A DNA stretch of 64,000 bases. It comes from an uncultured Alphaproteobacteria bacterium. GTDB lineage: Bacteria > Pseudomonadota > Alphaproteobacteria > RF32 > CAG-239. The notes under the pieces were generated by a model. The model was not told where the DNA came from, made no database searches, and worked only from the letters and a program-made list of their open reading frames with translations. Below, piece by piece: positions 29,043 through 60,062 of this stretch; the first letter of the stretch is position 1; every line of letters begins with the position of its first letter. The stretch is from assembly GCA_944393175.1 (NCBI GenBank), contig CALXZH010000012.1, positions 62,001-126,000 of the forward strand. Direction: 5' to 3'. Position numbers and translations under genes: made by a program.

Positions 29043-29339
29043 TTAGTAACCGTAAACTCGGACACAATAACGTTGTATCAGAACGTAATTTTTTGCGTTA
29101 AAATCGTAATTTGTCACTTTTGTAATATGTCCGTTTTTTATAGCATCCGTCAATTTAACGTCACCAAATGGGCCTATCAATCCTAACAACGATATAGAAC
29201 AACTTTCACCTTCTTTTATGTTGTCAATGTTTGAGTAGTCCATGTCTTTAAGTTCTATAGTCTGTATCACAGGGGTATGGGTAGCTGCACAAGCAGATAA
29301 GCTGAAAATCAGAGCTAAGGTTAAAAATATTTTTTTCAT
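29043..29339 (-). CDS. TRL-like small lipoprotein
   Basis: 98 residues with a lipoprotein signal (SLSAC, lipid-anchor C17). The mature part EGESCSISLLGLIGPFGDVKL followed by AIKNGHITKV and a C-terminal C..V.GY ending matches the TRL-like family (tRNA-associated-locus protein), envelope lipoproteins of unknown role. The RBS overlaps the sequence GGATGTTA, which can pair with the upstream structured leader. A gene with a closely related leader but a different product lies at 59237. Confidence 0.75.
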   Translation of the reverse strand: MKKIFLTLALIFSLSACAATHTPVIQTIELKDMDYSNIDNIKEGESCSISLLGLIGPFGDVKLTDAIKNGHITKVTNYDFNAKNYVLIQRYCVRVYGY

Positions 29340-29344
29340 ACGAT

Positions 29345-29550
29345 TAACATCCTTTAGTCATAGTTAAACAAAACCCGCTCTTTAGTAAAAGGCGGGCGGA
29401 TGTTAGAAAACCGTATTAGACCAAACGGCTCGGCTTATTCAGCACATAGCCTTATTAGGCCGACATCCGCCCCTAAGGACAGAAATCGGCATATATGAGT
29501 TTTAAGTCGCTATGCAGGCGACTAGTCTAATAAAAGGGTTTTCTAAGCCC
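29345..29550 (-). promoter_or_regulatory. Structured leader RNA of the TRL-like gene (riboswitch-like)
   Basis: On the minus strand the leader can form GGGCGGATGT:ACATCCGCCC (29394-29403 with 29463-29472) as a core stem. Long outer arms are 29403-29412 with 29537-29546 and 29414-29421 with 29525-29532. A terminator uses CCCGC (29374) and GCGGG (29392). An 8-bp duplex (29398-29405 with 29345-29352) covers the ribosome-binding site. These helices are mutually exclusive in part. The same layout precedes the lipoprotein gene at 59237, with covarying arms. Ligand or trigger unknown. Confidence 0.65.
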
Positions 29551-35765: not shown

Positions 35766-36230
35766 TTATGAAAAGTGTGTCTTTGCCAGATTGATAATTA
35801 GTTTTTGCTTTTGTTGTGCTTGTCTGACGGCTTGATAGCTGCCTCCTGATTTACGGGTAATGTAACAAACAATAACATTGGCGTTTTCTGCTATATATTT
35901 ATTTCGTCGGCTGATGGCAAATTTTTGGGGGCCTTTGGTGGCTATTGGCGGATAGATAAGTTCGTATCTTTCTTCTAAAAATTGTTGTTTTATTGTTGAA
36001 TAGTGGTTGGGATTATATGCGCAGATATAACAGAGTGTTATGTTGGGATTTTCTTTTTTTAATCGTTGCATTGTGGTTCTTGCAAGCCAATCAAAGTTCC
36101 CTTGTTCACAACACCAAAATTCGTCGTATCCATTGGTAATCAATTCTTTGACAACTTGTTCAAGTTGATTTTCCAAGTGCGTTGTTATCAAAGTATCTCG
36201 ATGACCGAAAAAAGCAACTATACCGCTCAA
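35766..36230 (-). CDS. SLOG-superfamily (DUF1273/YpsA-like) protein
   Basis: 154 residues from a TTG start. FFGHRDT near the N-terminus and ISRRNKYIAENANVIVCYITRKSGGSYQAVRQAQ near the C-terminus are the nucleotide-binding signatures of the SLOG/DUF1273 Rossmann family, whose members sense or process nucleotide-derived ligands. The first 16 codons lie inside a tandemly repeated structured-RNA region, and the same 16 codons recur as a broken copy at 36507-36587. No ATG alternative is available. RBS is poor, suggesting controlled translation. Confidence 0.72.
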   Translation of the reverse strand: MSGIVAFFGHRDTLITTHLENQLEQVVKELITNGYDEFWCCEQGNFDWLARTTMQRLKKENPNITLCYICAYNPNHYSTIKQQFLEERYELIYPPIATKGPQKFAISRRNKYIAENANVIVCYITRKSGGSYQAVRQAQQKQKLIINLAKTHFS

Positions 36231-36453
36231 GTGAAGTCCAATCAGCCCAAGCTAATTGCCTGAAAAGGCGGTGGATGTTACAAACTACGGTCATTATGAG
36301 TGGTAGCCCACTTATTCGTGCGAGCCTTATTTCGTGGCATCCACCTTGCGGTAAATGCCCATATAGCAATAGTTCTCCTGTTTTAAACAGAAGTCCCTTT
36401 GCCCATAATGACCAGGGTTTGTAATCCCTTGTTAAGATTTGGGCTATCCCAAC
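36208..36453 (-). ncRNA. Structured RNA, copy 1 (promoter-proximal to SLOG gene)
   Basis: Minus-strand RNA of about 245 nt. Variable arm helices: TTACAAAC (36278) with GTTTGTAA (36417), and GGTCATTATG (36289) with CATAATGACC (36404), separated by an internal loop CTAC/AGG kept in both copies. The core holds hairpins CAGGAG/CTTCTG, a GCAA-capped 10-bp helix (GGCAT..ATGCC), and AGTGG/CCACT. An outer helix pairs AGCCCAA with TTGGGCT. The 3' end has a T-run at 36208-36213 and overlaps the SLOG start. Confidence 0.68.
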
Positions 36454-36459
36454 TCCTTT

Positions 36460-36488
36460 ACTATATATGCTGAAAAATAAAATTACAA
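36460..36488 (-). promoter_or_regulatory. Promoter for structured RNA copy 1
   Basis: Minus-strand TTGTAA (36483-36488) and TATAGT (36460-36465) with an exact 17-base spacer; transcription would start near 36453. Same in copy 2. Confidence 0.6.
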
Positions 36489-36506
36489 TTCCTAATATCT
36501 TTGAGC

Positions 36507-36587
36507 TTAAATTATTTTTGAACTTTGGGTAAAATTTTTTGTTATCAAAGTATCTCGATGACCGAAAAAAGCAACTATACCGCTCAA
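36507..36587 (-). pseudogene. Broken duplicate of the SLOG gene start
   Basis: Sixteen codons identical to the start of the SLOG gene (TTG at 36587, through FFGHRDTLIT), then ten unrelated codons and a stop at the repeat junction. It arose with the tandem duplication; alternatively it is simply part of the conserved RNA 3' region. Confidence 0.6.
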
Positions 36588-36811
36588 GTGAAGTCCAATC
36601 AGCCCAAGCCAATTGCCTGAAAAGGCGGTGGATGTCGTTAACTACAATCTCTATGAGTGGTAGCCCACTTATTCGTGCGAGCCTTATTTCGTGGCATCCA
36701 CCTTGCGGTAAATGCCCATATAGCAATAGTTCTCCTGTTTTAAACAGAAGTCCCTTTGCCCATAGAGATTAGGATTAACGATTCCTTGCTGAGATTTGGG
36801 CTATCCCAACG
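36565..36811 (-). ncRNA. Structured RNA, copy 2 (upstream copy)
   Basis: Same fold as copy 1 with different arm sequences: CGTTAA (36636) with TTAACG (36775), and AATCTCTATG (36646) with CATAGAGATT (36761), again separated by CTAC/AGG. Sixteen pairs were replaced with complementarity kept, while the 105-nt core is unchanged. T-run at 36565-36570. Confidence 0.68.
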
Positions 36812-36816
36812 CCGTT

Positions 36817-36845
36817 ACTATATATGCTGAGAAATAAAATTACAA
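36817..36845 (-). promoter_or_regulatory. Promoter for structured RNA copy 2
   Basis: Minus-strand TTGTAA (36840-36845) and TATAGT (36817-36822), 17-base spacer, identical to that of copy 1. Confidence 0.6.
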
Positions 36846-59076: not shown

Positions 59077-59106
59077 CTGATAATTAGAGCAATTTTACGC
59101 GGTCTC

Positions 59107-59145
59107 GAAAAATTCACGTACGTTTTATGTACGCTAAAATTTTTC
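59107..59145. repeat. Inverted repeat downstream of rlmN
   Basis: GAAAAATT-CA-CGTAC and GTACG-CTAA-AATTTTTC form a long hairpin with a 7-base loop. No T-run follows, so it is not a normal terminator. The rest of the 160 bases to the next gene shows nothing. Confidence 0.4.
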
Positions 59146-59236
59146 TCGCCACTAGAAATCACTCTATTTACGCACGCTATCCGAGTTTTTTTGTAAAAAG
59201 CTTGTCTGTGAGCTGCGGTACTTTCGCCTTTATTTC

Positions 59237-59689
59237 TTATTTTGGGGGGGTATTTTTATTTGCAACAGGTATCAATTTGCCTGAGGCGGAAATTTCAAAG
59301 CCCATTTGACGGAGTGTTTCTATTCCTTCTTCATCATAAATATAAAAATATACCAATTCTCTTTGATTAATTGTTTCGGCGTCGATAGCCGCTTCCGGAA
59401 TGCCCCAAAGAATCGATATTGGCCAAGTTACGAGATTGCCAAAACCATAAAGGTAATGACTACTATCTCCGCCGTTGCCAGATGCTAAATAAAAATTACC
59501 AATACCGGGGAGAAGATTTAGCATTGCTGCTCCTGCCGGATTGGCTGGTCTTTCCCAGTTGCCTTTGGGTTTATCTACGCTTATTCCTTTGGATTCCAGA
59601 CTGCGAAGCGTGGTTCTTTCGCTATAACTTAATGAGGTGCAAGCCGAAAGACAGAATATCAACAAGCTAAAAAGTACGATTTTTTTCAT
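59237..59689 (-). CDS. Lipoprotein of unknown family, with structured leader
   Basis: 150 residues from the ATG at 59689 (AGGA 8 bases upstream). Lipoprotein signal LSAC with C17; the mature part has NLLPGIGNFYLASGNGG, a short membrane-like hydrophobic stretch (LVTWPISILWGIPEAAI) and a polar C-terminus. This resembles small lipoproteins with a glycine-rich helical hairpin; family not recognised. Its leader and RBS are built like those of the TRL-like gene at 29043, though the proteins differ. Confidence 0.78.
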   Translation of the reverse strand: MKKIVLFSLLIFCLSACTSLSYSERTTLRSLESKGISVDKPKGNWERPANPAGAAMLNLLPGIGNFYLASGNGGDSSHYLYGFGNLVTWPISILWGIPEAAIDAETINQRELVYFYIYDEEGIETLRQMGFEISASGKLIPVANKNTPPK

Positions 59690-59691
59690 TA

Positions 59692-59895
59692 GAACATCCT
59701 TATTTGTGGTTAAAATAAAACCCGCGCTTTTTTTAGTAAAAGGCGGGCGGATGTTCAGAAACCGTATTCTGTTAAAACGGCTCGGCTTATTTGGCCAAAG
59801 CCTTATTCGCCGACATCCGTCCGAAAACAGACTAAACGTCGGCACAATCTTTTAAGTCGTGTGCACACGACTAACAGAATTAAGGGTTTCTGACG
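59692..59895 (-). promoter_or_regulatory. Structured leader RNA of the 59237 lipoprotein gene
   Basis: Same layout as the leader at 29345-29550. Core stem 59745-59754 with 59813-59822 (one G/T wobble); arms TCAGAAACC (59755) with GGTTTCTGA (59885) and ATTCTGTTA (59766) with TAACAGAAT (59872); terminator CCCGC (59721) with GCGGG (59743); RBS duplex GGATGTTC (59749) with GAACATCC (59692). Arms and the eighth RBS pair covary with the other copy. A tail hairpin AGATATG/CATATCT lies at the far end (about 59901-59922). Confidence 0.65.
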
Positions 59896-59980
59896 CCCTG
59901 AGATATGTTTTTTGACATATCTTGCTTGTAGCTTAGCGGTTTAATTGTAAAAAGTAAAGCAAAAATGCGGGAGGTATAAA

Positions 59981-60062
59981 AAGGCGGGCGGATGTTCAGA
60001 AACCGTATAACTGTAAACGGCTCGGCTTATTTGGCCAAAGCCTTATTCGCCGACATCCGTCC
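59981..60062 (-). promoter_or_regulatory. Truncated third copy of the leader RNA after engB
   Basis: Matches the core of the 59.7-kb leader (GGCGGGCGGATG...CGACATCCGTCC) nearly base for base but has different arm bases (TATAACTGT) and lacks the partner arms and terminator. It directly follows the engB stop on the minus strand. Probably a decayed or partial duplicate. Confidence 0.6.

Follow-up and report, generated by a model that had tools for sequence, protein, structure and literature searches.

Two unrelated lipoprotein genes in the window, the whole 64,000-nucleotide stretch of alphaproteobacterial DNA analysed here, are each preceded by a leader of the same architecture, raising the question of what one RNA might do ahead of such different genes. 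An earlier note, made from the letters alone, described the 59 kb leader as a repeat of the one at 29 kb and proposed a shared envelope signal. The analysis points to a different answer, held at a probability of roughly 0.7: by analogy with known systems, the leader would be a complete control module based on antisense RNA, of the same type as phage C4, P4-CI and sRNA-Xcc1. Its parts are collected in Table 1.

Table 1. Parts of the two leaders and adjoining features in the window
Feature	Position	Strand	Remarks
Candidate controlled gene: lipoprotein MKKIVLFSLLIFCLSACTSLSYSERT..., 150 aa, without Pfam match	59237..59689	-	orthologues follow the same leader in other genomes
59 kb leader, about 200 nt, ahead of the lipoprotein gene	59692-59898	-	
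RBS of the 59 kb leader, AAGGATGTTC (pairing stretch GGATGTTC)	59692..59701	-	complementary to GAACATCC of the core; b2/seqC-like
Terminator-like hairpin, CCCGC...GCGCGGG + TTTTATTTT	59712..59747	-	read from the sequence
C4/sRNA-Xcc1-like core: P1 (CGGATGT/ACATCCG), P2, P2b, P3; begins GGA	59737..59822	-	RF02221 match, fold, pair counts
b' GGTTTCTGA	59755..59763	-	partner of b1 TCAGAAACC
a' TAACAGAATAC in the P3 loop, hypervariable 'barcode'	59764..59774	-	partner of a1
Most conserved internal loop, GAATAAGG...AATAAGCCGAGCCG	59778..59808	-	alignment A1; partly demanded by the search pattern
Pc hairpin (59855-59872), its loop pairing with GTGC 59842-59845 (pseudoknot)	59838..59872	-	overlaps Pd
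a1 AATTCTGTTA	59872..59881	-	
P0 hairpin, GGGC-GTCAGAAA-CCC	59884..59898	-	loop presents b1 TCAGAAACC (59885-59893)
Upstream hairpin, AGATATGTC...ACATATCT	59901..59922	-	close to the leader start
Second, orphan copy of the 84-nt core	59978..60062	-	directly after engB; without upstream arms; loop differs
Gene below the 29 kb leader: TRL-like lipoprotein (PF13146)	29043..29339	-	
Sister leader (29 kb)	29345..29548	-	RBS 29345-29354, terminator 29366-29396, core 29386-29472, a1 29525-29534, b1 29537-29546

The lipoprotein gene at 59 kb likely starts at the ATG at 59689, rather than at the GTG that opens the longer, program-called ORF. In its leader, a1 AATTCTGTTA pairs with TAACAGAAT, which lies inside 59764-59774 on the minus strand, and the arm and RBS pairs of the 29 kb leader on that strand are TTAGAAAACC/GGTTTTCTAA, TATTAGAC/GTCTAATA and TAACATCC/GGATGTTA. 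Every arm quoted in the earlier note is found on the minus strand, and its account of a repeated architecture, in which both partners of each arm pair and of the RBS duplex have changed, stands: the arm duplexes of the two leaders reach -21.3 and -20.8 kcal/mol with their own partners and lose this pairing when exchanged (-6.0 and -7.9). Both leaders fold far more stably than their shuffles (z -7.06 at 59 kb, -5.34 at 29 kb), and both can adopt two mutually exclusive folds involving the terminator and the RBS. A consensus promoter scan and a strict terminator scan of the 59 kb leader found none; the terminator scan permits loops of 3-8 only, so that the hairpin at 59712-59747 escapes it. This hairpin, the P0 hairpin at 59884-59898, the hairpin-loop pseudoknot and the orphan core are features beyond those of the earlier note.

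Leaders of this kind are common in one group of gut bacteria. The core pattern recovers at least 96 stretches in public genomes, titled uncultured Alphaproteobacteria or proteobacteria and mostly from gut and rumen; it has no match in viral contigs, and an origin in present-day viruses was rejected on that ground. Because the DNA search missed divergent leaders, a covariance model (R1, built from 36 leaders) was used instead. In the window's gut alphaproteobacterial family, R1 has matches in 124 of 152 genomes; outside it, only 1 of 397 sampled Pseudomonadota genomes is matched. These genomes, about 1.5 Mb in size, carry 1 to 23, 31 and 55 leader copies each.

Pair counts in alignment A1 bear out the claim of one covarying RNA leader family ahead of unrelated genes. 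Cells of Pa, Pb, Pc and Pd are paired in 90.5% of cases, against 80.6% after shuffling and 21-45% after sliding; double changes number 133, compared with 48 for shuffled data, and the covariation is 0.372 against 0.204. For P0, P1, P2, P3, Pc and the pseudoknot, 97.6% of cells are paired against 95.1%, and 35 cells are double-changed against 7.4; P1 and P2 are near-invariant because the search pattern demanded them, and hence contribute little information. Compensatory changes occur in all four pseudoknot pairs and in four of the five Pc pairs. G-U pairs account for 144 of 2012 arm pairs (Pa/Pb) and are widespread in Pd, pointing to RNA rather than folded DNA.

A terminator-like hairpin with a T-run lies 3' of 87 of 94 cores, and the core begins with GGA in 71 of the 94 leaders and with GGT in one. 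Shine-Dalgarno sequences of the GGAYGTT/GGAGTT type occur in 52 of 87 leaders, complementarity to the RBS being common and not universal. Across these 52 leaders, the RBS base after GGAYGTT follows the b' type (4/6 vs 5/46, Fisher p 0.006). Own RBS pairings average -9.30 against -8.54 when swapped, a weak test because ACATCC is common to the leaders. Promoter hexamers show a modest enrichment, 43% of leaders matching at 9 or more of the 12 positions against 19%.

Private complementarity is observed directly in the arms. In 94 related leaders, the arms pair with their own core segment at -23.1 kcal/mol on average and with the segments of others at -13.4. The difference persists between leaders of a single genome, at -18.9 vs -10.3 in G102, -19.3 vs -9.8 in G135 and -19.3 vs -8.6 in G100, and 29 of the 30 parsed R1 leaders of G102 are self-complementary. 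A single secreted family in G102 comprises about 70 genes, whose products have an N-terminus in common (QCVATQDCETLGYTETSC...); many of these genes lie below leaders, and one of the proteins shows weak similarity to Lcl_C. A second, divergent leader subtype stands ahead of 12 of 20 sampled other members of the family, and its arms likewise prefer their own partner (-13.6 vs -4.8 swapped), which is the best one in 12 of 12 cases. Judged by sequence, the arms look like gene-private barcodes, that is, antisense specificity regions and not a common ligand sensor, and one self-matching barcode per copy suggests that each gene may have its own RNA switch.

From these parts we infer promoter use, a short RNA, its action in trans and the sign of regulation along the following lines. 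Transcription would begin just upstream of the leader. The 5' half of the transcript would bear the targets a1 and b1, with the RBS matching the P1/b' end, and the 3' half, the core of about 84 nt, would fold into P1-P2-P3 and carry the antisense segments a', in the P3 loop, and b'. Transcripts ending at the terminator past the core would release a short antisense RNA that may be trimmed at its GGA 5' end. This RNA, or the core in cis, may then pair with a1 and b1 on leaders still being transcribed, which would make the terminator form and mask the RBS. The gene would stay low unless pairing is escaped; the sign could be C4-like repression or IsrK-like activation. Since a1/a' and b1/b' differ between copies, each RNA is proposed to act on its own gene only.

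How fast the arms change bears on this specificity. In 41 pairs of G102 leaders, which are not independent of one another, the bodies differ by 2.9% on average and the arms by 23% and 20%; in a wider set of distant copies, arm divergence is close to that of the post-core spacer. Selection for orthogonal arms is well supported, although the non-independent pairs and spacer-like divergence keep the case from being closed. The same figures also weigh on the idea of a purely cis-acting attenuator that reuses a C4-like fold, with a1 and b1 pairing with the core of their own molecule only and arm diversity reflecting neutral stem drift. Such an attenuator would suit the fact that a1/b1 and a'/b' always share one transcript, as well as the spacer-like arm divergence of distant copies, but arms 20-23% different at a body difference of 2.9% exceed the drift expected for stems that need paired changes, making this account unlikely.

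Under the antisense-module reading, a broader picture can be offered more tentatively. A phage-type antisense immunity module may have been turned into a barcode system in these gut Alphaproteobacteria, in which dozens of surface-protein genes per genome carry near-identical leaders with fast-diversifying, self-complementary arms, giving each a private, non-cross-reacting switch and allowing independent, perhaps variegated, expression of the surface repertoire. If true, this would amount to a naturally occurring collection of RNA regulators that do not interfere with one another, and to a testable way for common gut bacteria to achieve variegated expression of surface proteins.

The leaders are directly associated with genes. 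The earlier note had regarded copies mostly lacking a downstream gene as the mark of a repetitive element; a same-strand ORF of at least 50 aa lies below 87 of 94 leaders, with the start codon at a median of 60 nt past the core, and 5 of the 7 leaders without an ORF are no more than 230 nt from the end of the available sequence. By crude tests, which are approximate because length cut-offs differ between the sets, a lipobox is present in 34 of 87 genes below leaders and in 40 of 536 neighbouring ORFs; signal-peptide-like starts occur in 65 of 87 (75%) against 111 of 536 (21%). Pfam matches below leaders include autotransporters, PEGA lipoproteins and beta-barrels, together with EcoRI methylases (EcoRI-type restriction-modification), Mrr endonucleases, kinases and glycosyltransferases. 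In many-copy genomes, leaders stand ahead of families of secreted proteins; those of G135 head secreted proteins, with BspA-type LRRs in 2 of 2 tested.

The proposed link to the envelope holds. Envelope genes are enriched below leaders; a common function is not apparent, since restriction-modification enzymes, kinases and glycosyltransferases accompany the exported proteins, and a common signal is hard to reconcile with these mixed functions and with the private arms. A rival reading of this kind is a riboswitch-like or protein-binding leader that would sense a common envelope signal, in which the AATAAGG...AATAAGCC loop would bind an effector and the arms would be mere switch helices. The strong conservation of the internal loop, the two mutually exclusive folds and the excess of exported genes all fit such a leader. 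Switch helices need not be private, yet the near-identical leaders of one genome all differ in their arms. Rfam searches of the leaders returned no riboswitch, leaving sRNA-Xcc1 as the sole credible match and removing any known riboswitch as a candidate, and the nearest structural relatives (sRNA-Xcc1, C4, P4 CI, IsrK) are antisense RNAs. With arms private to each copy, even among paralogues with near-identical bodies, a shared envelope signal is improbable.

Several further copies and repeats deserve separate mention. The orphan core matches RF02221 at 38.5 bits (E 2.5e-5), and no target matching its loop was found in the window's genome; its b' could still pair with b1 of the 59 kb leader (-15.3 kcal/mol). 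Another repeat of about 150 bp, GAGCAATTTTACGCGGTCTCGAAAAATTCACGTACG..., lies at 59077-59220 and in the rlmN-engB interval of L220 and L222, in one to several copies, and a pair of 300-nt direct repeats of 92% identity, spaced 357 nt, occupies 36182-36838. Two contig ends, L003 and L004 (C14, C21), carry leader halves with a 19-nt stretch in common (TACGGTTTTCGAACATCCG); an insertion element may have split a single leader here. The window's genome also contains three divergent leaders (L024, L026 and L027) with GGAG/CTCC stems, self-matching arms and RBS complementarity, and L024 and L026 stand before small HTH genes. At L045, the P3 loop no longer matches the upstream arm, and the gene below is a frameshifted lipoprotein.

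Gene content between rlmN and engB varies among sister species: one has the window's lipoprotein without a leader, and two others share leader and signal peptide with different lipoproteins behind them. These exchanges, the orphan core at 59978-60062 and the copy number of up to 55 per genome could suggest a DNA-level element, either a folded, attC-like recombination or cassette-exchange site or a dispersed repeat, with genes swapped behind a constant leader, but the fixed spacing of about 60 nt from copies to start codons, the terminators, the RBS complementarity and the tolerated G-U pairs all speak against it, and ordinary homologous recombination can explain the swaps, so that this is a very doubtful reading. 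An integron attC site was rejected because the copies stand before scattered, single genes and because their G-U pairs and constant distance to the start codon argue for RNA; a type III toxin-antitoxin system, with repeats, terminator and gene, was rejected because the genes encode lipoproteins and adhesins and the copies are mostly single.

The antisense-module reading draws on comparison with known RNAs. C4 and P4-CI RNAs are phage immunity devices, and chromosomal C4-like sRNAs with unknown targets occur in Acinetobacter; here a device of this kind would precede an entire class of surface genes in bacteria, each genome having 1 to 55 copies. The features of the C4 type found in the leaders are P1-P2-P3, a' in the P3 loop, an adjoining b' and matching upstream a1/b1. 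Complementarity between b' and the RBS is seen in both window leaders and in many others, though not in all. The C4 RNA of phages P1 and P7 (RF01695; c4-a1b1 of Weinberg 2010, PMC2864571) likewise has three stems, a variable a' specificity loop, b' directed toward the RBS, a 5' GG(W) and b1 in a GGG-loop-CCC hairpin. In C4, a' forms the specificity loop, b' acts at the RBS and RNase P cleaves at GGW (PMC5320573). True C4 loci present the same order of parts: first the GGG-loop-CCC hairpin and a1, next a core whose P3 loop holds a', with b' adjacent, and lastly, ahead of the gene, a complementary sequence. Their upstream arms match their own core, which ranks first in 8 of 16. Unlike C4, the leaders do not adjoin antirepressor genes. 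The C4 model reaches 26.5 bits at best on the leaders (E 0.25, chance level), and genome G000 has no RF01695 match at E 1e-4.

P4 CI RNA pairs with seqA on its upstream side and seqC on its downstream side and thereby brings about termination; IsrK of Salmonella Gifsy-1 exists in short and read-through forms (PMC4825925). Both have complementary flanks around the antisense RNA and a terminator between the RNA and the gene, and the leaders resemble this seqA-antisense-seqC arrangement in layout: upstream arms are nearly universal, the terminator-like hairpin is present in 87/94 and the downstream match is partial. The Group 1 C4-like sRNAs of Acinetobacter baumannii (PMC5320573) resemble the leaders in their many chromosomal copies and variable a' loops. 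They are processed sRNAs with an unknown target, whereas the leaders are joined to their own upstream arms and a gene.

Among the closest structural relatives, sRNA-Xcc1 (RF02221) is borne on Xanthomonas integron cassettes and also occurs in other Proteobacteria. Its P1-P2(P2b)-P3 fold is near-identical to that of the leader core by dot-bracket comparison, and the two have motifs in common (AATA...GAATAA, and P3 followed by TTTTGA). The 59 kb core matches model positions 1-87 at 37.0 bits (E 5.6e-5, 451 bases searched) and the 29 kb copy at E 1.5e-5; further leaders of the family reach 33-37 bits. Every matched leader spans positions 1-87 with the same stems, and matched leaders of the main subtype score 32.9-39.1 bits, below the curated cut-off of 53. 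The leaders differ from sRNA-Xcc1 in standing ahead of envelope genes in gut Alphaproteobacteria and in having an additional conserved Pc/pseudoknot domain.

Among 398 Pseudomonadota genomes, 39 contain RF02221 matches above the cut-off. True members, like the leaders, carry upstream a1/b1 arms and precede a gene, and at 26 loci tested their own arms pair at -37.3 against -28.1 when swapped, with the own partner ranking first in 15. Genes below these loci include the antirepressor-type BRO-N, Rha, KilA-N and P22_AR, as well as SymE, and sRNA-Xcc1 has been described upstream of symE (PMC12444791). In the literature searched, a single paper names both C4 antisense RNA and sRNA-Xcc1, giving them as separate sRNAs. 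The true sRNA-Xcc1 loci (L189-L218) are themselves tripartite leaders, and the description of the family as a free, trans-acting sRNA looks incomplete. The literature consulted treats sRNA-Xcc1 as a virulence-linked free sRNA and not as part of a tripartite leader; the present comparison suggests that it forms the antisense portion of a leader like those described here.
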